Origin: Flavobacterium sp. ZT3R18
GTDB taxonomy: Bacteria; Bacteroidota; Bacteroidia; Flavobacteriales; Flavobacteriaceae
Assembly (NCBI RefSeq): GCF_007097385.1
Contig: NZ_VJZS01000014.1
Span: 1-64,000, forward strand
Reading direction: 5' to 3'
Length of the DNA: 64,000 nt
Below the pieces are notes generated by a model that made no database searches, was not told where the DNA came from, and worked only from the letters and a program-made list of their open reading frames with translations. Of the stretch, positions 16,602 through 26,011 are shown piece by piece. The position numbers and the translations under genes are program-made. How positions within the stretch are numbered: position 1 is the first letter of the stretch; the number at the start of each line of letters is the position of its first letter.

Positions 16602-16997
16602 TTAAATATAGTATTTCTTCTCTTTTTCGACCAGTAATTTTTCTTTCAATATTTGATTTTCTTTCTTTAAAGAATCGATTTCTATTTTTAAAATGTTGAT
16701 ATACTCTTGTTGATTGTCCACCATTTCTTTAGGGACGCTATAGTAGTGATTAGTATTTGTTTCAGGAGTTGTACTTATTGAATTGTCAATTGACGTACTT
16801 TCAGGTTCAAAAATGGTCTCAAAGGGAACGGATAAAATACTAGCTAATTTTTTCCATTCCTGATTGCTAATTTTGGTTTTTCCATTTTCCCTTCGTCTAT
16901 ACGAATATTCTTCTATGCACAGCAAATCTGCAATTTCTTTACAGCTTAATCCTAGGTTTTTTCGAGTTTTAATCAATTTTGATTTTTCCATAAACAT
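16602..16997 (-). CDS. XRE-type HTH regulator with C-terminal coiled coil
   Basis: A 131-residue protein. Residues 4-60 form a Cro/CI-type HTH (LIKTRKNLGLSCKEIADLLC, then EYSYRRRENGKTKISNQEWK). A polar linker rich in Ser/Thr/Asn follows, then a predicted coiled coil (INILKIEIDSLKKENQILKE). The start may be the Met at 16997 or at 16991. It is divergent from the VKOR fusion at 17229, across 231 bp of very AT-rich DNA, and is the nearest candidate regulator of the peptide locus. That link is inference from position. Confidence 0.8.
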   Translation of the reverse strand: MFMEKSKLIKTRKNLGLSCKEIADLLCIEEYSYRRRENGKTKISNQEWKKLASILSVPFETIFEPESTSIDNSISTTPETNTNHYYSVPKEMVDNQQEYINILKIEIDSLKKENQILKEKLLVEKEKKYYI

Positions 16998-17228
16998 TGA
17001 TATTTTATCACGAATGTAGGGATATTTTTTATATATGTTTAAAATATGTGCGAAAAATGTTTGCTTTGTGTAAGTATATGTTTTATTTATAAATATAAAT
17101 TTGAAAATAATTTTTTTTATTTATAGCAAAGTCAATATAAATAAAGGGATGTTTTTTTTTAAAATTAACAATAACCAACCACACTTCTTTAGCAATTGAA
17201 GTAAAGAAGCAAAATAGTAATCCGATTA

Positions 17229-18794
17229 ATGATAAAATTAGTAAACCAATATCTTAGTTTAAACTTTTATTTAAATATAAAAGAAGAGTTTGAAGAATCA
17301 TTTCTTTCCCATCCCAATTATCCAAGTGTATTCGCAATAACGGATTCTTTAGATATGTTGTCTATAGAAAATATAGCGATAAAAGTTCCGAAAGAACAGC
17401 TAGGAGAATTACCTATTTCATTTCTTGCACTTTTTGAGGGCGATTTAGTTTTAGTGACAAAAAATGAAAAGATGATCCAAATTGAGTCCGAAAGGGGAGT
17501 GAAAACCACCTTAGTTATAGATGATTTTTGCAAAGGCTGGAGTGGAGTTATAATAGCAATAGAACCCAATCAAGTTATTACAACAGAAAAGGAATCCAAT
17601 ATCAAATGGATGGCTTACAGTTTTCCTGTTTTAAGTTCAATCCTTTTATCAATTTTTTATAATAATTATAGTGTAAGCAATGCGATATTACTTTTTACTT
17701 CTTTAGTTGGTGTTCTGGTCAGTATTTTTATTGTTCAAGAAAAGTTTGGAGTGAAAAATGAAATAGTTTCAAAATTGTGCAATATCAATCCAAATGCTTC
17801 CTGTGATTCGGTTATTCAATCTCATGAAGGGGAGATTAATAAATGGATGAGTTTTACAGATTTGCCATTGCTTTTTTTTAGCGTTAATATAGTTTCGGTT
17901 TTATTGAACCCAACTTATTCCAGTAAAATAATTGCTTTACTCAGCGTTATATCATTTCCTATTATTGGTTACTCCATTTGGCTTCAAAAATTTAAAATCA
18001 AGAAATGGTGTATGCTCTGTTTGGCAGTATCGACTATACTTGTTCTGCAAGGTTTGGTGGGTTACTTTTTAGAACAGCCGTTACTGTCGAATGTGATTTT
18101 TAATGATTTTAGTTATTTGTTTTCTATAGTGGCTTGCACTTCGTTATGGTTTATGATAAAACCAGTATTAGAGTCTAAGTTTAAAGCGGAAAATGAAGTA
18201 AAAGAATTGAAGAAGTTCAAAAGGAGTTATACTGTTTTCGAATTTTTATCAAAAGAAGTTCCTGTAAAGGAAGGGTTCGCTAAGCTACAAGGCCCACAGT
18301 TCGGTAATCCTAAATCGAGTATAGCACTTACAATTATCCTTAGTCCAAGTTGTGGTCATTGTCATAAAGCATTTGAAGAAGCCATTCACTTAGTATATAA
18401 ATATCCTGAAAAAATATTTTTGAATGTTCTATTTAATATTAACCCAGAGAACAATGACAATCCTTACAGAGCTGTAGTGGAAAACTTATTAGAAATCAAT
18501 AATATATTTCCTGAAAAAATAGAAAAAGCCATTTCGGATTGGCACATCCGTAAAATTGGATTGGATCCATGGTTAAAGAAATGGAAAGTGGGTGTTATCT
18601 CCATGAAAGTGAACCAACAAATTCAGCAGCAATACGATTGGTGTTTAGAAAATGAATTCAACTACACTCCCGTTAAAATTGTAAATGGAAAATTATATCC
18701 AAATGAATACAGCATCAGTGAATTAAAATATTTTTTAAATGATTTTTCTGAGGAGAAAGATGCTGCAGAAATGGAAAGTTTAGTCCGACTTTAA
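17229..18794 (+). CDS. C39-like / VKOR / thioredoxin-fold fusion protein
   Basis: A 521-residue membrane protein. Residues 1-110 resemble a C39-peptidase-like domain without the catalytic cysteine (SHPNYPSVFAITDSLDML). Several membrane helices follow with the vitamin-K-epoxide-reductase features CNINPNASCDSVIQS and the CMLC pair in KIKKWCMLCLAVS. The C-terminal part is a thioredoxin/DsbA-like domain with C375GHC378 in SPSCGHCHKAF. Such fusions make and pass on disulfide bonds. It stands 89 bp upstream of eight cysteine-rich secreted peptide genes, so oxidation of those peptides at the membrane is the natural proposal. The C39-like part might hold the leader. Confidence 0.87.
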   Translation: MIKLVNQYLSLNFYLNIKEEFEESFLSHPNYPSVFAITDSLDMLSIENIAIKVPKEQLGELPISFLALFEGDLVLVTKNEKMIQIESERGVKTTLVIDDFCKGWSGVIIAIEPNQVITTEKESNIKWMAYSFPVLSSILLSIFYNNYSVSNAILLFTSLVGVLVSIFIVQEKFGVKNEIVSKLCNINPNASCDSVIQSHEGEINKWMSFTDLPLLFFSVNIVSVLLNPTYSSKIIALLSVISFPIIGYSIWLQKFKIKKWCMLCLAVSTILVLQGLVGYFLEQPLLSNVIFNDFSYLFSIVACTSLWFMIKPVLESKFKAENEVKELKKFKRSYTVFEFLSKEVPVKEGFAKLQGPQFGNPKSSIALTIILSPSCGHCHKAFEEAIHLVYKYPEKIFLNVLFNINPENNDNPYRAVVENLLEINNIFPEKIEKAISDWHIRKIGLDPWLKKWKVGVISMKVNQQIQQQYDWCLENEFNYTPVKIVNGKLYPNEYSISELKYFLNDFSEEKDAAEMESLVRL

Positions 18795-18820
18795 AATATA
18801 AAAAATATTCTTGCAAGGAT

Positions 18821-18856
18821 AGACTCAAACCCCAAGTGTCTTAAAACGATTAGGGT
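18821..18856 (+). promoter_or_regulatory. Conserved pseudoknot-like element 1
   Basis: Arms: S1 AGACTC/GTGTCT (one mismatch) and S2 ACCCCAA/TTAGGGT (one mismatch). The S2 5' arm lies in the S1 loop, and the S1 3' arm lies in the S2 loop. It ends 27 nt before the ATG at 18884. A near-consensus -7 box, TATTCTTG (18806-18813), just upstream would start transcription near the element's first base. Confidence 0.6.
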
Positions 18857-18883
18857 ATTAACTAAATATTAAAAACTATAATC

Positions 18884-19030
18884 ATGTTAAAAAACATTTT
18901 AAAATTAGAAGGAGCTCAAAAATTGAGTAAGAATGAGCAAAAATCAATCATTGGTGGTGGCTCATGTGAAAGGATTAATTGTGGATTGGACTTTGAATGC
19001 AGGTATGGCCGTTGTTTTCCGACAGAATAA
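18884..19030 (+). CDS. Double-glycine leader peptide precursor 1
   Basis: A 48-residue precursor. The leader MLKNILKLEGAQKLSKNEQK is followed by SIIGG, a double-glycine cleavage site for a C39 peptidase. The predicted core, GSCERINCGLDFECRYGRCF plus PTE, has four Cys. It is the first of eight such genes between the VKOR fusion and the peptidase-ABC exporter, and probably encodes a bacteriocin-like or signalling peptide exported and trimmed by that transporter. Activity is not known. It is too short for the supplied size cut-off and was found by reading the repeated leader. Confidence 0.85.
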   Translation: MLKNILKLEGAQKLSKNEQKSIIGGGSCERINCGLDFECRYGRCFPTE

Positions 19031-19112
19031 TATTTGAGTGATTTAACTCGTTGGCTTGAGTTTTAATCAGTACTTACAACAAGGGTGGGTATTTATATTT
19101 TTAAAGATAAAA

Positions 19113-19146
19113 AATGACAATGGCAATAGCTGTTGTCATTATGACT
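19113..19146 (+). terminator. Hairpin after peptide gene 1
   Basis: AATGACAA (19113-19120) pairs with TTGTCATT (19133-19140), extended by four further pairs including two wobbles around an AATA loop. A short T-run follows. Confidence 0.6.
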
Positions 19147-19161
19147 TTTTAACATTGTCAA

Positions 19162-19197
19162 AGACATAAACTCCAAGTGTCTTAAAACTATTGGAGT
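19162..19197 (+). promoter_or_regulatory. Conserved pseudoknot-like element 2
   Basis: S1 AGACAT/GTGTCT (one wobble); S2 ACTCCAA/TTGGAGT, a perfect 7-bp pairing. It ends 27 nt before the ATG at 19225. TAACATTG just upstream is one base from a -7 box. Confidence 0.65.
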
Positions 19198-19224
19198 ATT
19201 AACTAAAGAATAAAAACAATAATC

Positions 19225-19392
19225 ATGTTAAAAAACATTTTAAAATTAGAAGGAGCTCAAAAATTAACTAAAAAAGAGCAAAAGTCAATTAACGGAGCGG
19301 GAGCATGTCAAGGTATAGATATTTTTATTTGCTGTCCAGATACAGGATTGTGTTCGTGTGCTCCAAAAGGGACTCCATGCATGTTGAGTTAA
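19225..19392 (+). CDS. Double-glycine-type leader peptide precursor 2
   Basis: A 55-residue precursor with leader MLKNILKLEGAQKLTKKEQK and the junction SINGAGAC. The usual GG is GA here, which some C39 exporters also accept. The core has six Cys, including an adjacent pair (FICCPDTGLCSCAPKGTPCM), the most in the set. The stop is only 16 nt before element 3, so genes 2 and 3 may share a transcript. Confidence 0.82.
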   Translation: MLKNILKLEGAQKLTKKEQKSINGAGACQGIDIFICCPDTGLCSCAPKGTPCMLS

Positions 19393-19401
19393 ATAACATT
19401 G

Positions 19402-19436
19402 GACATAAACCTCAAGTGTCTTAAAATGATTGAGGT
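19402..19436 (+). promoter_or_regulatory. Conserved pseudoknot-like element 3
   Basis: S1 GACAT/GTGTC (one wobble); S2 ACCTCAA/TTGAGGT, perfect 7 bp. Compared with element 2, two base pairs of S2 are exchanged with pairing kept. It ends 28 nt before the ATG at 19465. Confidence 0.65.
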
Positions 19437-19464
19437 GTTAACTAAACTATAAAAAACTATTATC

Positions 19465-19623
19465 ATGTTAAAAAAGATTTTAAAATTAGAAGGAGCTCAA
19501 GAATTGACGGAATTGGAGCAAAAAGTTATTAAAGGAGGTCTTCCATATTGCGAGTTCGGATATCCAATTCGTATTTTCGAAAACGGTCGTTGGAAATGGA
19601 TCTGTAGTGGAGAAGAGATTTAA
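19465..19623 (+). CDS. Double-glycine leader peptide precursor 3
   Basis: A 52-residue precursor, leader MLKKILKLEGAQELTELEQK, junction VIKGG. The core begins LPYCEFGYPIRIFENGRWKW and has only two Cys, enough for one disulfide; it is the least cysteine-rich member and is aromatic and basic. The leader has two extra acidic residues compared with the others. A terminator hairpin follows. Confidence 0.83.
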   Translation: MLKKILKLEGAQELTELEQKVIKGGLPYCEFGYPIRIFENGRWKWICSGEEI

Positions 19624-19647
19624 TGTTTTCAAACTTATAATACAGAA

Positions 19648-19688
19648 ACTTTTTACTAAGATTACAATTGAAGTAAATAGTCTTTTTT
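19648..19688 (+). terminator. Terminator after peptide gene 3
   Basis: ACTTTTTACT (19648-19657) pairs with AGTAAATAGT (19672-19681) with one mismatch, followed by a TTTTTT run. Confidence 0.6.
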
Positions 19689-19707
19689 GAAGTTATTTTA
19701 AACATAA

Positions 19708-19743
19708 AGACTCAAACCTCAAGTGTCTTAAAATGATTGGGGT
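19708..19743 (+). promoter_or_regulatory. Conserved pseudoknot-like element 4
   Basis: S1 AGACTC/GTGTCT (one mismatch); S2 ACCTCAA/TTGGGGT with one T-G wobble. It ends 28 nt before the ATG at 19772. Confidence 0.6.
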
Positions 19744-19771
19744 ATTAACTAAACTTTTAAAACTTTAGATT

Positions 19772-19933
19772 ATGTTAAAAAGAATTTTAAAACTAGAAGG
19801 GGCTCAAAAATTAACTAAGAATGAGCAAAAACAAATTGATGGAGGTCTATTGATTAGAAAATGTCCATGGGGAACTTACGACTGTGAAGGTGATGGCAGA
19901 TTTTGTATAAAAAGTGGACAATATTGCCCATAA
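19772..19933 (+). CDS. Double-glycine leader peptide precursor 4
   Basis: A 53-residue precursor, leader MLKRILKLEGAQKLTKNEQK, junction QIDGG. The core starts LLIRKCPWGTYDCEGDGRFC and has four Cys. The spacing C-P-x-G-T-x-x-C-E, then C-x-K-x-G-x-x-C-P, is shared with precursor 5, so these two are recent paralogues with diverged cores. Processing and export would again depend on the C39 transporter at 21283. Confidence 0.84.
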   Translation: MLKRILKLEGAQKLTKNEQKQIDGGLLIRKCPWGTYDCEGDGRFCIKSGQYCP

Positions 19934-20008
19934 GAAATCAAACCTAAATTCATTTAAGTTTTAACACTAATCTGCTTTATTTTAAGCATGTATTTCATTT
20001 CGACAGAG

Positions 20009-20044
20009 GTACCCTCCCCCTAAGTGTACTGATATGATAGGGGA
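20009..20044 (+). promoter_or_regulatory. Conserved pseudoknot-like element 5, diverged
   Basis: S2 is TCCCC(C)TA/TAGGGGA with one bulged C; its end pairs are swapped relative to the other copies. The conserved loop reads AGTGTACTGATATGA. S1 is not kept in its usual form; a 4-nt GTAC/GTAC pairing could replace it. It ends 26 nt before the ATG at 20071. Confidence 0.55.
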
Positions 20045-20070
20045 TTAACCAATTTCTAAAACTTTATATT

Positions 20071-20232
20071 ATGTTAAAAAATATTTTAAAACTAGAAGGG
20101 GCTCAAAAATTAACCAAAAATGAGCAAAAAACTTTAATTGGCGGGATACTAATAGGTTGTCCGGCTGGAACACATCAATGTGAGGATTCAGGTCCTTATA
20201 GATGTGTAAAGAATGGGATGATGTGTCCATAA
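20071..20232 (+). CDS. Double-glycine leader peptide precursor 5
   Basis: A 53-residue precursor, leader MLKNILKLEGAQKLTKNEQK, junction TLIGG. The core starts ILIGCPAGTHQCEDSGPYRC and has four Cys in the same frame as precursor 4. The rest of the core has diverged at most positions while cysteines and glycines remain, suggesting selection on the disulfide scaffold. A strong hairpin follows the stop. Confidence 0.84.
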   Translation: MLKNILKLEGAQKLTKNEQKTLIGGILIGCPAGTHQCEDSGPYRCVKNGMMCP

Positions 20233-20253
20233 TTTAGATTACTATAAAGAGGG

Positions 20254-20290
20254 AGCTATGTGATAAGGAGTGTTATTGCATAGCTTCTTT
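20254..20290 (+). terminator. Terminator after peptide gene 5
   Basis: AGCTATG (20254-20260) pairs with CATAGCT (20279-20285), extended inward by TGATAA/TTATTG with two wobbles. A T-rich stretch follows. Confidence 0.7.
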
Positions 20291-20307
20291 TATTCGGAAT
20301 TTCAAGT

Positions 20308-20343
20308 GACACAAAACTCCAAGTGTCTTAAAATGATTGGGGC
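20308..20343 (+). promoter_or_regulatory. Conserved pseudoknot-like element 6
   Basis: S1 GACAC/GTGTC perfect; S2 CTCCAA/TTGGGG with one wobble. It ends 28 nt before the ATG at 20372. Confidence 0.62.
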
Positions 20344-20371
20344 ATTAACTAAATTATTAAAATTATAAATC

Positions 20372-20527
20372 ATGTTAAAAAACATTTTAAAATTAGAAGG
20401 AGCTCAAAAATTAACTAAAAAGGAGCAAAAAAGTATTTCGGGTGGGTATGTGCCGATCTGTTGTTTAAGATGGAATCCTAGAACTAGAGTTTGTTCTCTA
20501 TGGGATGACGCTTGTTTGGGACAATAA
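20372..20527 (+). CDS. Double-glycine leader peptide precursor 6
   Basis: A 51-residue precursor, leader MLKNILKLEGAQKLTKKEQK, junction SISGG. The core YVPICCLRWNPRTRVCSLWD plus DACLGQ has four Cys including an adjacent pair, with several Trp and Arg residues. It is unrelated in core sequence to its neighbours. A terminator follows. Confidence 0.84.
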   Translation: MLKNILKLEGAQKLTKKEQKSISGGYVPICCLRWNPRTRVCSLWDDACLGQ

Positions 20528-20555
20528 TATAAAGTTGTAGTAAAACAATTCATTT

Positions 20556-20590
20556 AGGAGCTATTAAATTTTCTTTATTAGCTCCTTCTT
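20556..20590 (+). terminator. Terminator after peptide gene 6
   Basis: AGGAGCTA (20556-20563) pairs with TAGCTCCT (20579-20586); a short T-rich tail follows. Confidence 0.6.
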
Positions 20591-20669
20591 GTAAAGGTAT
20601 TCTATTAATAATTCTACTTATTTAAAGTCATTGTATTAAACTCTAAATATAATAACTGCTTTTTTTAGA

Positions 20670-20700
20670 GAGAAAGTAAGTTTCTCAAAAAAAATTGGGT
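20670..20700 (+). promoter_or_regulatory. Degenerate element 7
   Basis: Only the downstream half of the conserved element remains (TTGGGTATTAATTAAA). A CTCAA/TTGGG pairing is still possible, but the AGTGTCTT loop core is replaced by an A-run. A different hairpin, GAGAAA/TTTCTC (20670-20686), lies in its place. Confidence 0.4.
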
Positions 20701-20729
20701 ATTAATTAAACTACTAAAAACGTATAATC

Positions 20730-20894
20730 ATGTTAAAAAGCATTTTAAAATTAGAAGGTACTCAAAAATTAACTAGAAATGAGCAAAAAAGCATTTGCGG
20801 TGGAGATACACCTCCAAATTGCTATGATCCTGAAACCGAAATGTATTCATGTCCACTTCGTATAGGCAGAACTTGGATCTGTGTTTATTGTTAA
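20730..20894 (+). CDS. Double-glycine leader peptide precursor 7
   Basis: A 54-residue precursor, leader MLKSILKLEGTQKLTRNEQK, junction SICGG. The leader itself carries a Cys just before the cleavage site, unlike the others. The core starts DTPPNCYDPETEMYSCPLRI and has four Cys, ending ICVYC. Its upstream element is degenerate, so this copy may be regulated differently or decaying. Confidence 0.8.
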   Translation: MLKSILKLEGTQKLTRNEQKSICGGDTPPNCYDPETEMYSCPLRIGRTWICVYC

Positions 20895-20914
20895 AACGGT
20901 TTAATACGATAGAT

Positions 20915-20950
20915 AGACACAAACCTCAAGTGTCTTAAAATGATTGGGGC
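20915..20950 (+). promoter_or_regulatory. Conserved pseudoknot-like element 8
   Basis: S1 AGACAC/GTGTCT, perfect 6 bp; S2 CCTCAA/TTGGGG with one wobble; the third loop is TAAAATGA. It ends 28 nt before the ATG at 20979. It starts 21 nt after the stop of peptide gene 7. Confidence 0.65.
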
Positions 20951-20978
20951 ATTAACTAAATTATTAAAACTATAAATC

Positions 20979-21170
20979 ATGTTAAAAAACATTTTAAAAT
21001 TAGAAGGAGCTCAACAATTAACTAAAAAGGAGCAAAAATCAATTAATGGGGGATATGGATGTATTAGAACCTTTTATTGGACAATGACAGCAGCCGAATG
21101 TGCTGATGAAGGGGGCATTTATAATGCGAGTACTGGAAAATGTCGCGTTAGTGAAAACATTTGTCTATAG
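20979..21170 (+). CDS. Double-glycine leader peptide precursor 8
   Basis: A 63-residue precursor, the longest of the set. Leader MLKNILKLEGAQQLTKKEQK, junction SINGG. The core YGCIRTFYWTMTAAECADEG continues with GKCRVSENICL; it has four Cys. It lies immediately upstream of the exporter gene, separated by a strong terminator, so the exporter needs its own promoter or read-through. Confidence 0.86.
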   Translation: MLKNILKLEGAQQLTKKEQKSINGGYGCIRTFYWTMTAAECADEGGIYNASTGKCRVSENICL

Positions 21171-21192
21171 TTCAATTTTTTCATAAAGATAG

Positions 21193-21227
21193 TAGAGAGA
21201 AGATTTATTTTTCTCTCTATTTTTTTA
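21193..21227 (+). terminator. Terminator between peptide 8 and the exporter
   Basis: TAGAGAGAA (21193-21201) pairs perfectly with TTCTCTCTA (21211-21219), followed by a run of seven T. Confidence 0.85.
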
Positions 21228-21282
21228 TAGTAGTTATATGAAATAAATGTCTTAATTTGCTTTCAAAATAATAAGTGTTACA

Positions 21283-23475
21283 TTGAAGAAATTTCCCAAC
21301 TACAAACAGGCCGATTCTAAAGACTGCGGCCCTACCTGCTTAAAAATTATTGCCAAGCATTATGGCAAAACGATAAACATTCAAGAATTAAGAGATTTTA
21401 GCGAGACCACTCGCGAAGGCAGTAATTTATTATTTCTAAGTGATGCTGCCGAGAAAATAGGCTTTAGAACTTTGGGAGTAAAACTCAATTTAAAAAGTCT
21501 AGAAGAAGTGCCTTTGCCTTGTATTTTGCATTGGAACAAAGAACACTATGTAGTCCTGTATAATGTTAAAAAAGGAAGGTATTTTATTTCAGACCCCGGT
21601 TTTGGGTTAATTGAGTATAATGAATCCGATTTTATAAAATTTTGGATAGGGAATAATGCCGATGATACTACTCAGGAGGGTATTGCTTTATTACTGGAAG
21701 CTACGCCAAAGTTCTTCCAGTCTGAATTTGACAAGGAAGAAAATAAGGGATTTGGATTTGGATTATTGTCTCAATATGTATTGCGATACAAATCCTTCTT
21801 AATGCAGTTAAGCGTTGGTTTATTAGCCAGCAGTTTGTTGCAGCTTATTTTTCCTTTCTTGACACAAAGTATTGTCGATGTTGGGATTCAGAATCAAAAT
21901 ATTCATTTTATTTATCTCATACTGTTTGCGCAATTGTTTCTTTTTGCGGGAAGAACAGGACTAGAACTCATTCGGAGTTGGATACTTTTGCATCTTTCTA
22001 CAAGAATAAATATTTCCCTAATATCAGATTTCTTTATTAAATTAATGAATTTGCCCATTTCATTTTTTGATGTTAGAATGACCGGAGATATCATGCAACG
22101 CATAAATGATCACCATCGAATAGAAAAAATTTTAACTACTTCTTCCTTAAATGTATTGTTTTCTGTAATCAATATGTTTATTATGGGAGGGGTATTGGCC
22201 TATTATAACCTTCAAATTTTCTTTGTGTTTTTTGCAGGAAGCATACTGTATTTTGGTTGGATTACCCTATTTCTTAAAAGAAGAAAAGAGTTGGATTACA
22301 AGAGATTTTCGGAAGTAAGTCAGGAACAAAGTAAAGTGATGGAGCTCATCAACGGGATGCAGGAAATTAAATTGCACAATGCCGAAAAACAAAAACGCTG
22401 GGGATGGGAATACGTACAGGCGAGATTGTTTCGGGTTTCTATAAAAGGATTGGTACTAGAACAAACACAAACGATTGGTTCATCGGTTATAAATGAGTTA
22501 AAGAACATTTTTATTATTTTCCTTTCGGCAAAATTAGTGATAGACGGATCCATTACTTTAGGGATGATGATGGCAATAAGTTCTATCGTGGGGAGTTTGA
22601 ATGGCCCAATTACCCAACTTATTGAGTTTGTCCGTGAATTGCAAGACGCCAAAATTTCCTTGGCTCGTTTGTCTGAAATTCACGAAAAAGAAGATGAGTC
22701 CCAACAAGAAATGCATCAAACACACGATATTCCAAAAGACAGTGCTATTGTTATAAAGGATTTGTGTTACCGTTATCTGGGGTCGGATATTTCTGTTTTG
22801 GACAATCTGAATTTAACGATTCCTGCCCGAAAAGTTACCGCTATCGTGGGCGTTAGCGGAAGTGGAAAGACTACCTTAATGAAACTATTGCTTAAATTCT
22901 ATGATCCGGACAAAGGGGAAATCAATTTAGGAAATACCCAACTCAAAAATATTGCACAAAAATCTTGGAGAGCCAACATAGGTGCTGTAATGCAAGAAGG
23001 CTTTATTTTTAATGATACGATCGCCAATAATATAGCCGTAGGAGTGGATTTAATTAATAAAGAGCGTCTGGTGTATGCAGCAGATGTGGCCAATATCACG
23101 GAATATATCTTAGGATTACCACTAGGATATAATACTAAAATAGGTAGTGAAGGAGTAGGGATGAGTACCGGACAAAAGCAACGATTACTTATTGCCAGAG
23201 CTGTTTACAAAAACCCTGAAATGTTGTTTTTTGATGAAGCTACTTCAGCCTTGGATGCCAATAATGAAAAAGTAATTATGGGTAAACTGGATCTTTTTTT
23301 TAAGAATAAAACGGTAGTGGTTATTGCGCATCGATTGAGTACAGTAATGAATGCCGATCAAATTGTGGTGCTAGACAAAGGGAAAATTATCGAGATGGGA
23401 AGTCATTCGGCATTGGTAGAACAAAAAGGAAATTATTTTGAATTGGTTAGAAATCAATTGCAATTAGGGAATTAA
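21283..23475 (+). CDS. Peptidase-containing (C39) ABC exporter for GG-leader peptides
   Basis: A 730-residue inner membrane half-transporter. The N-terminal C39 protease has Cys15 (SKDCGPTC), His88 (NKEHYVVLY) and Asp104 (ISDPGFG), so it should cut precursors after the double glycine. Six membrane helices follow, then the ATPase with Walker A GVSGSGKTT (523-531), signature STGQKQR and Walker B LFFDEATSALD. The only reasonable start is a TTG at 21283. It directly follows eight GG-leader genes and precedes an HlyD adaptor, giving a type I export system; no TolC partner is in the window. Confidence 0.95.
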   Translation: MKKFPNYKQADSKDCGPTCLKIIAKHYGKTINIQELRDFSETTREGSNLLFLSDAAEKIGFRTLGVKLNLKSLEEVPLPCILHWNKEHYVVLYNVKKGRYFISDPGFGLIEYNESDFIKFWIGNNADDTTQEGIALLLEATPKFFQSEFDKEENKGFGFGLLSQYVLRYKSFLMQLSVGLLASSLLQLIFPFLTQSIVDVGIQNQNIHFIYLILFAQLFLFAGRTGLELIRSWILLHLSTRINISLISDFFIKLMNLPISFFDVRMTGDIMQRINDHHRIEKILTTSSLNVLFSVINMFIMGGVLAYYNLQIFFVFFAGSILYFGWITLFLKRRKELDYKRFSEVSQEQSKVMELINGMQEIKLHNAEKQKRWGWEYVQARLFRVSIKGLVLEQTQTIGSSVINELKNIFIIFLSAKLVIDGSITLGMMMAISSIVGSLNGPITQLIEFVRELQDAKISLARLSEIHEKEDESQQEMHQTHDIPKDSAIVIKDLCYRYLGSDISVLDNLNLTIPARKVTAIVGVSGSGKTTLMKLLLKFYDPDKGEINLGNTQLKNIAQKSWRANIGAVMQEGFIFNDTIANNIAVGVDLINKERLVYAADVANITEYILGLPLGYNTKIGSEGVGMSTGQKQRLLIARAVYKNPEMLFFDEATSALDANNEKVIMGKLDLFFKNKTVVVIAHRLSTVMNADQIVVLDKGKIIEMGSHSALVEQKGNYFELVRNQLQLGN

Positions 23476-23483
23476 GAAGGAGA

Positions 23484-23574
23484 TGGAAGTTGGAAGAAGG
23501 AAGAAGGAAGAAGGAAGAAGGAAGAAGGAAGATGGAAGTTGGAAGTTGGAAGTTGGAAGATGGAAGTTGGAAGC
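23484..23574. repeat. Tandem heptamer repeat, 13 units
   Basis: Thirteen consecutive 7-bp units of the form (T/A)GGAAG(A/T) fill exactly 91 bp just after the exporter stop. The array could vary in length by slippage. An inverse-complement relative (AACTTCCAGCTCCCAGCTTC) lies at 23602-23621, and again inside the HlyD gene start. Confidence 0.85.
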
Positions 23575-23647
23575 GGGGGTGTTCTCGATATTGCGATTTC
23601 GAACTTCCAGCTCCCAGCTTCAAACTCCCCGCTAATAAACACACACT

Positions 23648-24086
23648 ATGAGTTTTAAATTTGAAAGATTAATAATCTGGCAAAGAGCAATGGATTTTGG
23701 AGGGGATATTCATAAGCTTTCGATACAATTTCCTAAAAATGAAACCCACAACAAAAGACATTTTTCTTCCGAATAAAAAAAAGTGGGTTCCTGACAACCA
23801 AATTGCAAATGTTTTTTCGGAAGAAATGTATAATCTTTCGTCACAAATTCTTAGAGCTTCAGATTCTGTAGCTTTAAATATTTCGGAAGGTTCAATTTTA
23901 CAATCTAATCTAGAATTCAATCGATTTTTAGGATATTCTGTTCGTTCATTGGCAGAAACAATAACTTGCTTATATAAAGCGGAGAGAAGAAATTACATTA
24001 GTAAAGAAATATTTGATAAACATTATAATGAAGCTTTTAATTTAATGAATATGTTAATAGCCTTCAAATCTAAAATAAAACAATAA
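23648..24086 (+). pseudogene. Four-helix-bundle (23S rRNA IVP-type) protein, frameshifted
   Basis: From the ATG at 23648 the frame reads MSFKFERLIIWQRAMDFGGD, then DIHKLSIQFPK, the start of the S23/IVP-type four-helix-bundle family. It then hits a stop (GAATAA) at about 23771-23776. The family sequence resumes in another frame at 23820 with EEMYNLSSQILRASDSVALN and runs to 24086. About 82 bp at 23738-23819, which is not a multiple of three, separates the halves. It contains a GAAACCCAC/GTGGGTTC inverted repeat. An ATG at 23739 could restart translation of the second half. The gene lies between exporter and adaptor. Confidence 0.78.
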
Positions 24087-24088
24087 AA

Positions 24089-25405
24089 ATGCCTGAATTA
24101 CCAGCTACCAGCTCCCAACTCCCAGCTCCAGACTTCCAGCTTCGCAGTGAAGAAGTACAAGATATTCTTACTCGTGTTCCGCACTGGATGATTCGCTGGG
24201 GAACCGTTTTGATTTTTGGAATCATCATGATGCTTTTTTTTGTGTCTTGGTTTTTAAAATATCCGGATGTAGTAAGTACCGAAATTGTCATTACAACTAC
24301 AATTCCACCTGAGAAAATAGTTGCTAAAACTACTGGAAGAATCGAAGCTATTTTAGTAAAAGATAAAGCAGCAGTTTTAGAAAATACGACACTTGCCATA
24401 ATTGAGAATAATGCCAATTATAAAGACGTTTTTATTTTAAAAAACGGTATCGATCATTTTGATTTAAATGGGACTGTAAAATTTCCGTTTCATTTACTGG
24501 AAAAAGCACAATTAGGAGATGTTGAAAGTGCGTATGCCATTTTCCAGAAAGAATATTCTGCCGAAGAACTCAATACACAACTGCAACCTTTTCAAATAGA
24601 AAACAAAGCGCAGCATTCTGAGAATACTCAAATAAAAGAGAGGTTGAGGCTATTAGAGCAGCAAAAAACAATAAATGAAAGCGAATTGCAACTCCAAAAA
24701 AATGATGTCAATCGTTTTGAAGTTTTGTATAATAAAGGAGTAGTTTCTACCCAGGATTTTGAAAACAAGAAATTAGGTTATCTTCAAGCTGATAAGAATT
24801 ATAAAAGTTTATTATCCTCGATTTCTCAATTAAAATCATCTTTAATTGAGAACACAAAATCAAGTCAAAGCTCTCAAATAAATGGGACTAGAGAAACAGT
24901 AAATTTAGATCGTAGTGTGATGCAAGCTTTTTATCAATTAAAAAAAGCAATAAAAGATTGGGAGTTGACCTACACTTTAAAGTCATCTGTTTCTGGAGTG
25001 GTTACTTTTTTGCAAGTTTGGACAAAGAACCAATCCATAGCCTCGGGAGACAATGTATTTTCGATCATACCCACAATAAAAGAAGGATATGTAGGCAAAG
25101 TAAAGGCTCCTGCATTGAATTCTGGAAAAATTAAGGTGGGACAAAAAGTAAATATTCGATTGTTCAATTTTCCTGACAGGGAGTTTGGTGTTTTAAGGGG
25201 GAAAGTAAGTAATATTTCATTGGTGCCAGACAAAGACGGTAATTTACTAATAGATGTGTCTTTGCCAAAGGGATTAGAGTCTTCCTATAAAAAGCAGATT
25301 CCTTTTCAGCAAGAAATGAAAGGATCTGCGGATATTGTGACCGAAGATTTGAGATTGTTAGAACGTATTCTCTACCAGTTTAGGGATGTTTTCAAAACAG
25401 AGTAG
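24089..25405 (+). CDS. HlyD-family membrane fusion adaptor
   Basis: A 438-residue periplasmic adaptor with one N-terminal membrane helix (about residues 36-53, VLIFGIIMMLFFVSWFL), a lipoyl/barrel half-motif (KIVAKTTGRIEAILVKDKAA), a long coiled-coil hairpin (residues ~170-280) and a second half-motif (YTLKSSVSGVVTFLQVW). It links the C39 exporter to an outer membrane channel. Residues 2-18 (PELPATSSQLPAPDFQL) are encoded by a CCAGCTCCCAGCT-type repeat also found in the preceding intergenic DNA, so the start of this protein appears to be repeat-derived. An alternative later start is not obvious. Confidence 0.9.
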   Translation: MPELPATSSQLPAPDFQLRSEEVQDILTRVPHWMIRWGTVLIFGIIMMLFFVSWFLKYPDVVSTEIVITTTIPPEKIVAKTTGRIEAILVKDKAAVLENTTLAIIENNANYKDVFILKNGIDHFDLNGTVKFPFHLLEKAQLGDVESAYAIFQKEYSAEELNTQLQPFQIENKAQHSENTQIKERLRLLEQQKTINESELQLQKNDVNRFEVLYNKGVVSTQDFENKKLGYLQADKNYKSLLSSISQLKSSLIENTKSSQSSQINGTRETVNLDRSVMQAFYQLKKAIKDWELTYTLKSSVSGVVTFLQVWTKNQSIASGDNVFSIIPTIKEGYVGKVKAPALNSGKIKVGQKVNIRLFNFPDREFGVLRGKVSNISLVPDKDGNLLIDVSLPKGLESSYKKQIPFQQEMKGSADIVTEDLRLLERILYQFRDVFKTE

Positions 25406-25564
25406 TATTGAGATTACCTTATATGTCAAAACAAAACTGACAATTAAAAGGTATAAGAAAGTAAGCAAGAAGTGTTGGATAGAGCGATACAATTTTGTAA
25501 TATTGGGGGATAAATTAATAGATGTTAATCAGCTGTTTTCCCCAAATCAGCCAAAATCAAAATT

Positions 25565-25969
25565 ATGAAAAAACAAATAGCGCTTATTTTATTATTATTA
25601 GCAGGGTCAATCGGGTATTCACAAACACAAACACAAACACAAGCTCTGGATTGCAGTAAACTTAAAAACTTCAAAGCGTATAATCCAGACTATCCTAAAA
25701 GGACTTTTGTGGTAAAAGGTGCCACTCAAGAAAGTTATGACAACGGAGTGCTTCAATTGGTTTGGAGTGTTAAGTGGATCAGCGACTGTGAATATGAAAT
25801 CACTTGCGTTAAAAAGCTTGGAGAATCTCAGATGGAAATAGGGGATAGAATTATTATGACAATTGTGAGTATTGACGATGACTGTTTCACTGTTAAAAGA
25901 ACTTTTTATAGTAAAAATTTTCCAGAAGGAGATGTTGATCCAGGTAGCACATACTGTCTAGCAAAGTAG
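25565..25969 (+). CDS. Small secreted protein of unknown function
   Basis: A 134-residue protein with a signal peptide (MKKQIALILLLLAGSIGYS), then a QTQTQTQ run and a mature domain with five Cys (LDCSKLKNFKAYNPDYPKRT ... SDCEYEITCVKKLG ... DDDCFTVKRTFY ... STYCLAK). I do not recognise the family. The 159 bp between it and the HlyD gene hold no gene. Its link to the export locus is only positional. Confidence 0.7.
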   Translation: MKKQIALILLLLAGSIGYSQTQTQTQALDCSKLKNFKAYNPDYPKRTFVVKGATQESYDNGVLQLVWSVKWISDCEYEITCVKKLGESQMEIGDRIIMTIVSIDDDCFTVKRTFYSKNFPEGDVDPGSTYCLAK

Positions 25970-26011
25970 TAGATCAGTTTTAAAAAAGTTGAGAAAGTTA
26001 AAGGATTTTTA

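Follow-up and report, generated by a model that had tools for sequence, protein, structure and literature searches.

The systems closest to the locus described here are the bacteroidetocins, for which class IIf has been proposed (Coyne et al., 2019, PMC6671954; further paper, PMC10352776). According to the former, a bacteroidetocin is a 42-aa, Cys-bearing peptide that kills Bacteroidales and has a leader of 15–16 aa ending in GG, and its region contains a thiol oxidoreductase, a C39-ABC transporter, and a separate gene for a five-transmembrane (five-TM) protein needed for toxin activity; deletion of the thiol oxidoreductase weakens this activity, and the peptides shift their gel migration when reduced (PMC6671954). 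We analyzed a locus in Flavobacterium sp. ZT3R18, located in the first 64,000 nucleotides (nt) of contig NZ_VJZS01000014.1 (the window; all position numbers refer to this whole stretch). It carries eight tandem genes for Cys-bearing peptides with leaders of the double-glycine (GG) type between the gene of a C39-like/VKOR/thioredoxin fusion protein and the genes of a C39-peptidase ABC exporter and an HlyD-family protein. With a probability of about 0.72, we consider that this locus would serve the biosynthesis and export of varied small secreted disulfide peptides, many of whose precursor genes would be under pseudoknot control.

The precursor array consists of the following open reading frames (ORFs):

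18884-21170, + strand: precursor array, eight GG/GA-leader ORFs
18884..19030, + strand: precursor 1, 48 aa, 4 core Cys
19225..19392, + strand: precursor 2, 55 aa, GA site, 6 Cys
19465..19623, + strand: precursor 3, 52 aa, 2 Cys
19772..19933, + strand: precursor 4, 53 aa, 4 Cys
20071..20232, + strand: precursor 5, 53 aa, 4 Cys
20372..20527, + strand: precursor 6, 51 aa, 4 Cys; common to F. laiguense
20730..20894, + strand: precursor 7, 54 aa, 4 core Cys and 1 leader Cys
20979..21170, + strand: precursor 8, 63 aa, 4 Cys; common to F. laiguense

The eight tandem ORFs of 48–63 aa, all on the + strand, were found where an earlier sequence-only reading of the window had placed them, between the fusion gene and the C39-ABC exporter with HlyD. 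That reading was also right that seven of the eight genes have fewer than 60 codons and that the leader is almost fixed: it has 25 residues, with 15 columns invariant among the eight, and ends with GG in seven cases and with GA in one. However, its statement that most cores share no obvious sequence is correct only in part, as the core families of six of the eight recur in other genomes. The cores of the window are 23–38 aa long with 2–6 Cys, and those at 19772 and 20071 are alike by eye. The GG-leader consensus for C39 export has hydrophobic residues at −4 and −12 and an acidic residue at −8; the array leader fits it, with L(−12), E(−8), and I or L(−4) before GG/GA. None of the eight precursors had a Pfam match at E 0.1 or reached an NCBIfam cut-off. 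A leader query of the strain's own genome (4.96 Mb, 71 contigs) returned the eight precursors and one lone copy (contig C1:131282-131356), which has four core Cys and no pseudoknot element seen upstream.

A set of 316 distinct precursors (leader hidden Markov model (HMM) E < 1e-7, M start) was obtained from 120 partly overlapping sources, namely 79 named loci, 40 other genome stretches, and the window, with up to 19 precursors at one locus. Core Cys numbered 0 in three precursors, 1 in two, 2 in 42, 3 in one, 4 in 153, 6 in 113, and 8 in two, and the count was thus even in 313 of them; the cut-site dipeptide was GG in 227. The binomial p value for this parity is not a true probability because the cores share kinship. 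When the 314 cores of at least 12 aa were grouped by BLAST single linkage into 64 families, one of them Cys-free, the modal Cys count was even in all 64. Such regularity leaves little room for chance, and the even counts, read from the sequence as is the anatomy of the locus, constitute strong evidence for disulfides.

The fusion protein was detected in 60 of 199 same-genus genomes (E ≤ 1e-5) and in 40 of 299 family-sampled genomes (E ≤ 1e-20), and the fusion profile in 13 of 247 class-sampled genomes (E ≤ 1e-15), with the strain's own genome counted each time. The 79 named loci derive from the best 80 of 162 fusion relatives in one genome scan; 76 are titled Flavobacterium and three only Flavobacteriaceae or Flavobacteria bacterium, some genomes contributed two loci, and some loci repeat stretches of the 40 other genome stretches. 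The nearest named relative of the fusion is that of F. laiguense (86% identical), and F. johnsoniae strain CI04 also carries such a locus (L195). The sequence-only reading had proposed a search of relatives for the leader beside VKOR and C39-ABC genes. Within the fetched stretches, leader precursors were present in 77 of the 79 fusion loci, the exporter in 72, and HlyD homologs in 66; contig ends truncate some of these stretches. Three of eight plasmid hits were inspected. An Aureibacter plasmid has the same order of fusion, small Cys peptides, exporter, and HlyD; an Emticicia plasmid has this order as well, but a TlpA-like gene separates the peptides from the exporter. On a Parabacteroides distasonis plasmid (L253), the fusion is followed by a Cys peptide, DUF4369, LanC-like, and two glycosyltransferase-type genes, and then by a C39-ABC exporter; this locus possibly represents a further modified peptide type.

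Over a length of about 35 nt, the upstream regions of all eight genes can be aligned, and they contain a recurring element, which lies ~25–30 nt before many precursor start codons. In it, stem S1 (RGACAN...NUGUCU) is interleaved with stem S2 (YYYCAA...UUGRRR); loop 1 has 2–4 nt, there is zero gap between the 5′ arm of S2 and the 3′ arm of S1, and loop 3 is A-rich (UWAAAUGA). Judged from the alignments described below, the element is an H-type pseudoknot RNA in which both stems covary and the loops would allow coaxial stacking. Its copies in the window are as follows:

18821..18855, + strand: pseudoknot element of precursor 1 (model and alignment)
19162..19196, + strand: pseudoknot element of precursor 2 (model and alignment)
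19401..19435, + strand: pseudoknot element of precursor 3 (model and alignment)
19708..19742, + strand: pseudoknot element of precursor 4 (model and alignment)
20009..20043, + strand: variant element of precursor 5 (by eye; CCCCTA/TAGGGG and GTAC/GTAC stems; no match to model R1)
20307..20342, + strand: pseudoknot element of precursor 6 (R1 E 3.8e-6)
Precursor 7: element degenerate or absent (by eye; no R1 match)
20915..20949, + strand: pseudoknot element of precursor 8 (model and alignment)

When 90-nt upstreams were given a structure-only pseudoknot score, 41 of 105 attained a value that only 0.4% of shuffles attained. A loose pattern that included pairing took 37 of the 105 upstreams, and the 26 of equal length formed alignment A3 (25 distinct rows), which is for this reason biased towards pairing. 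In A3, 98.0% of the cells were paired and nine of 12 pairs changed on both sides, compared with 25–47% paired cells in slid versions. Alignment A4 was gathered with a sequence-only model, which gave 98 matches from 65 sources; its 89 distinct rows include the 25 of A3. It had 96.7% paired cells against 23–68% in slid versions and both-side changes in ten of 12 pairs; none of 500 shuffles reached any of five measures. The 64 rows of A4 outside A3 gave 96.2% paired cells (637/662) and nine of 12 both-side pairs. Alignment A5 comprised 56 matches (50 distinct) of model R1, which scores S2 and not S1; 97.1% of its cells were paired, and the 48 of 50 rows outside A3 gave 97.0%. Of 500 shuffles of A5, 183 and 24, respectively, attained two counting measures, and none equaled its values for paired cells, both-side cells, or covariation score. 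In A3, A5, and A8 taken together, 136 of 142 distinct rows had at least five of six pairs in both stems. A comparison with Rfam release 15 placed no family on the elements at E 1 (16800-26000) or at E 10 (20900-20985); four weak matches within 16800-26000 lie off the elements and far below the cut-offs.

The domain structure of the fusion protein was determined as follows:

17229..18794, + strand: C39-like/VKOR/thioredoxin fusion (Pfam, AlphaFold2 (AF2) model, structural matches)
Residues 1-118: C39-like domain, without the catalytic Cys
Residues about 149-313: VKOR domain with Cys 184, 192, 261, and 264 (Pfam PF07884, E 1.1e-14)
Residues 340-521: DsbA/ScsC-like thioredoxin domain with Cys 375 and 378

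All six redox Cys (184, 192, 261, 264, 375, and 378) were invariant in 39 fusion homologs, and a loop Cys pair together with a CXXC motif in a helical bundle characterizes the protein as a member of the VKOR family. In the AF2 model (mean pLDDT 86.6), residues 1–120 match the peptidase domain of PCAT1 (8vp5_B, Z 13.6, 3.1 Å, 120 residues), 1–114 match leader-bound LahT (6mpz_B, Z 13.3, 114 residues), 151–285 match human VKOR (6wv7_A, Z 13.3), and 342–509 match ScsC (6nen, Z 17.0); these Z scores (VIA-align) are a re-examination of Foldseek's own matches, most rows of which cover the thioredoxin domain. The structural alignments of the C39-like domain start at residue 22 of PCAT1, 18 of ComA, and 28 of LahT, one residue past the catalytic Cys, which we take to be residues 21, 17, and 27, respectively. 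No alignment column of this domain had Cys in more than two of the 39 homologs. A weak profile alignment with the exporter C39 domain showed a gap at the position of His and Ser at that of Asp; the Cys/His/Asp triad of a C39 peptidase was not found in the domain by this alignment. The C39-like domain begins past the catalytic Cys and therefore probably reads leaders rather than cuts them; as far as the sequence and model indicate, the leader-binding fold was kept and the cutting residue lost. The sequence-only reading had given the domain makeup and place of the fusion correctly but treated its C39-like part as a plain domain, overlooking both the missing catalytic Cys and the possibility of a cytosol-facing enzyme. 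No paper combining VKOR with double-glycine leader peptides was found in a search that covered few subscription journals, and the main text of PMC4555120 does not mention "peptidase."

Six membrane spans were assigned to the fusion from the AF2 helices and hydropathy, with a lowest segment mean of 0.79 over 39 homologs; the number of spans is even, and therefore the C39-like domain, both VKOR Cys pairs, and the thioredoxin domain lie on one face. On average, K+R amounted to 15.4 per 83 residues on this active-site face and to 0.6 per 17 residues on the opposite one; every one of the 39 homologs showed a difference of this sign. The active site of Synechococcus VKOR is periplasmic, and in this orientation the short loops opposite its active-site face carry K/R (PDGLPLVKRWRW; GHRWLDGGK), while the corresponding loops of the fusion have mean K/R of 0.15 and 0.31. 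The short-loop charges of human VKOR agree with those of Synechococcus VKOR, i.e., are opposite to those of the fusion; in the vertebrate VKOR-like protein, however, no K/R is present in the loop that connects helices 2 and 3, so the charge control agrees only in part. The charge of the large Cys loop was dropped as topology evidence and the short loops alone were weighed, because its luminal counterpart in the vertebrate VKOR-like protein is likewise rich in K/R, which makes it uninformative. On these loop charges and the model, the odds are roughly even that the oxidase is oriented towards the cytosol and works on precursors not yet exported; such an orientation would account for its fusion to a leader reader. 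Only slightly short of an even chance is that the fusion is an ordinary periplasmic oxidase that acts on exported cores, with a C39-like domain that only docks the exporter. Characterized bacterial VKOR-thioredoxin enzymes act outside the cytosol, the fold of the fusion matches human VKOR and DsbA/ScsC proteins, and the luminal K/R-rich loop of the vertebrate VKOR-like protein weakens the charge argument for the large loop. Nevertheless, with six helices in 39 of 39 homologs, the C39-like domain comes to lie on the active-site side, where a leader, once cut, is no longer joined to its core, and the short-loop charges are opposite to those of Synechococcus and human VKOR.

Short opposite-strand genes with a second leader type (class B, about MKNxKLKFEDFxxEKLSKxQQKTVRGG) were present in 55 of the 79 named loci. 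They were gathered with a Cys-blind pattern, and 117 of 119 distinct class-B peptides had a core without Cys. Both leader classes have a common C-terminal half, of the kind read by C39 domains, and differ in their N-terminal halves: MLKNILKLEGA goes with cysteines and the FEDF type without them. The former may thus be an address for the oxidase. Class-B peptides have Asp/Pro/Gly-rich tails and are often in tandem on the minus strand near the fusion (e.g., L190 and L197); none was seen at the window locus.

The following sequence of steps can be proposed for the locus. In the constant 25-residue leader, the C-terminal half would act as the GG signal, of the ComC type, that directs precursors to the C39 exporter, and the N-terminal half would mark the Cys class. 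The Cys-less C39-like domain of the fusion would hold the leader-bearing precursors, the DsbA-like domain would oxidize the core cysteines, and the VKOR part would pass the electrons to membrane quinone. The exporter would then cut after GG and release the cores with HlyD and a putative outer-membrane channel. At the mRNA level, the H-type pseudoknot about 25–30 nt before the start codon would control many, not all, of the precursor genes. The proposal of the sequence-only reading that one pipeline makes varied disulfide-bonded peptides is well supported by the conserved gene order, even Cys counts, invariant redox Cys, and exporter triads; the enzyme action itself is what we infer.

Comparison with F. 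laiguense (L158) provided a view of array evolution. The co-linear flanks are 89–92% identical, whereas from 18943 (inside leader 1) to 20298 (shortly upstream of the gene 6 element) the window has only module cross-matches. Co-linearity resumes over gene 6 and is lost again at 20789, within leader 7. Both strains have genes 6 and 8, whereas cores 1–5 and 7, i.e., six of eight, differ although their leaders were kept. Since the breakpoints fall within or next to the element-leader modules, they would fit a recombination of these repeats that swaps cores behind a constant front. The locus is most likely a secretion pipeline for disulfide peptides, broadly of the bacteroidetocin kind and probably used against neighboring bacteria. 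A less probable, though quite tenable, alternative is that the peptides are secreted signals, inhibitors, or binding peptides whose varied cores serve several targets. Typical pore-forming peptides are cationic, and the cores of the 316 precursors, with 13.3% Cys, 6.6% K+R, and 10.1% D+E, are unlike them in being acidic on average, which favors this alternative. ComC-type leaders, moreover, occur in Gram-positive pheromones, and the presence of up to 19 precursors per locus points the same way. The core replacement behind kept leaders, seen in one close pair, looks instead like antagonistic diversification, and the closest described systems kill related bacteria, as reported in PMC6671954.

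In the strain's own genome, R1 placed the pseudoknot element at six of the eight array genes with E values under 4e-6, and the next match had E 0.68 (150 of 6094 first-look candidates scored). Within the genus, the element (E ≤ 0.01) was present in 36 of 199 genomes, own genome counted, and the fusion occurred in 34 of these 36 versus 26 of the 163 others (Fisher p 1.3e-19, which overstates the association because the genomes are related). Within the family, the element was found in eight of 249 genomes, own genome included, representing eight sampled genera; the fusion is present in each of the seven other-genus genomes, whose matches have E values between 5e-5 and 0.003, and six of them have a match within 10 kb of it. 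In these large searches, stricter filters lose weak matches. The 79 named loci had 87 element matches at E ≤ 0.1, all on the sense strand; 80 were followed by a leader-HMM ORF, in 77 cases 14–22 nt past the match end, and the other seven by a GG-motif Cys peptide with another leader (by inspection). In A5, 51 of 56 matches preceded a leader-type short ORF (by reading), some of them without a clean GG; the exceptions had no ORF in reach (L148 and L141), a short ORF without leader (L138:4437), or a short acidic protein whose leader is not clearly of the GG type (L134:2413 and L144). Far from the fusion of their genomes, some orphan genes have the element in front of GG leaders of a quite different kind (L127, L128, and L142), and such genes suggest that the element marks a wider peptide regulon.

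A further feature adjoins the first element:

18807..18820, + strand: palindrome ATTCTTGCAAGGAT, directly next to the first pseudoknot; resembles a promoter or operator

In the window, this palindrome was seen by eye at gene 1 only. Its part TATTCTTG resembles the Bacteroidota −7 box. A TNTTG box was present within 28 nt in 66 of 177 upstreams, most often 14 or 12 nt before S1, where some elements are counted twice and the palindrome frequency has no chance control. The box lies in a palindrome TATTCTTG...CAAGAATA ending at S1, which suggests that transcription starts near or in S1. The palindrome arms vary between loci (ATTCTTGCAAGGAT, ATTCTTGGCCAAGAAT, and ATTGTTGCAACGAT) and end at the first pseudoknot stem; the palindrome is a candidate operator, promoter box, or hairpin.

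It is improbable that the element acts as DNA, either as an operator or as a recombination site, with incidental pairing. The element and leader do form a repeated module of about 155 nt, the array replacement in the one genome pair ends in or beside such modules, and the palindrome abuts many elements; yet the interleaved stems with covariation and G-U pairs, the near-fixed spacing to the start codon, and the confinement to one strand in the named loci fit RNA better. Flavobacterial mRNAs generally initiate translation without Shine-Dalgarno pairing, according to PMC10931766, and a conserved structure at a near-fixed distance from the start codon is therefore a testable case of translational control. 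That the eight ORFs are chance reading frames, as their shortness and lack of a Pfam match at E 0.1 might imply, is already refuted by the conservation of the leader in hundreds of precursors across genomes and by the Cys parity of the cores.

Several observations weigh against the interpretation given here. The rows underlying models R1 and R2 had initially been selected for pairing. At the threshold used, the element was present at 43 of the 89 genes that open an array and at 37 of the 178 that follow; most precursor genes in the named loci therefore lack it. The profile alignment of the C39-like domain with the exporter C39 domain is weak (probability 39–78%), and the core replacement was seen in one genome pair. 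In addition, the split between the leader classes could reflect family history, with shared descent in each class, rather than enzyme addressing.

The array is followed by these genes:

21283..23475, + strand: peptidase-containing ABC transporter (TTG start; C39 domain with DCGPTC)
23739-24086: four-helix-bundle ORF between exporter and HlyD (TIGR02436, E 3.1e-23)
24089..25405, + strand: HlyD-family periplasmic adaptor (TIGR01843, E 4.5e-20, below the curated cut-off)

The exporter has the Pfam domains Peptidase_C39 (E 2.1e-33), ABC_membrane, and ABC_tran, and the C39 Cys-His-Asp motifs were present in 61 of 61 full-length neighboring exporters examined, including that of the window. The sequence-only reading listed the main genes of the locus but overlooked the four-helix-bundle ORF and the repeated upstream RNA element. 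Between exporter and HlyD, a 567-nt insert (23497-24063) stands against 37 nt in F. laiguense; it holds short GGAAGTTGGAAG-type repeats, from which the start of HlyD seems by eye to run on. PADLOC gave only ATPase-type matches to the exporter. A divergent gene of an XRE-type regulator (16602-16997) was rejected as a core part, as its homologs were found in only four of the 79 named loci, namely in the closest relative and three others.

Several features are new as far as the literature searched shows: multi-precursor arrays with even Cys counts and, judged from sequence and models, a pseudoknot element as well as an oxidase that carries a Cys-less C39 reader and is likely reversed in its topology. 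Small, easily overlooked ORFs represent a large predicted pool of disulfide peptides in Flavobacterium (316 distinct, 64 core families), and the pseudoknot can serve as a ready genome tag for GG-peptide genes. Should the oxidase indeed be cytosol-facing, it would represent an uncommon type of disulfide synthase, guided by leaders, that might be useful for peptide engineering. We regard as rather unlikely the most far-reaching combination, in which a decapitated C39 leader reader hands precursors to an inverted, cytosol-facing VKOR-thioredoxin oxidase that forms leader-guided disulfides before export, as in the biosynthesis of ribosomally synthesized and post-translationally modified peptides, and a new Flavobacteriaceae class of pseudoknot RNA beside the ribosome landing site, sensing a ligand or protein, switches the regulon.

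Like the bacteroidetocin regions, the locus belongs to Bacteroidota and combines short Cys-bearing GG-leader peptides with a thiol oxidoreductase and a C39-ABC transporter. It differs in a leader of 25 rather than 15–16 aa, in up to 19 precursors per locus, and in HlyD and the pseudoknot elements. In ORF lists inspected by eye, no separate five-TM gene was seen from the fusion to HlyD. Membership in class IIf is not claimed, since the leader length misfits; the locus is set beside the bacteroidetocins by description and not by sequence. The "bacteriocin-like protein" family leader_Chryseo (NF047798) is similar in the last 12–13 leader residues; six of the eight precursors scored 13.5–16.2 bits, under the curated 23.5, and two had no match at E 0.1. 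T4 gene 32 and the preQ1-I riboswitch are H-type pseudoknots in mRNA leaders, and the element resembles them in topology, short loop 1, and A-rich loop 3, but differs in its lack of an Rfam match and its link to GG-peptide genes in Flavobacteriaceae. The VKOR-thioredoxin protein of Synechococcus (4nv6) likewise joins a VKOR domain with CXXC and loop Cys to a thioredoxin domain, whereas in the fusion the latter is of the DsbA/ScsC type, a C39-like domain and an extra helix are located at the N-terminus, and the short-loop charges are reversed. Finally, the array exporter resembles PCAT, ComA, and LahT in its intact C39 motif and in the leader pattern of L(−12), E(−8), I/L(−4), and GG/GA, to which the array adds a conserved N-terminal leader half and a Cys-less C39 copy on the oxidase.

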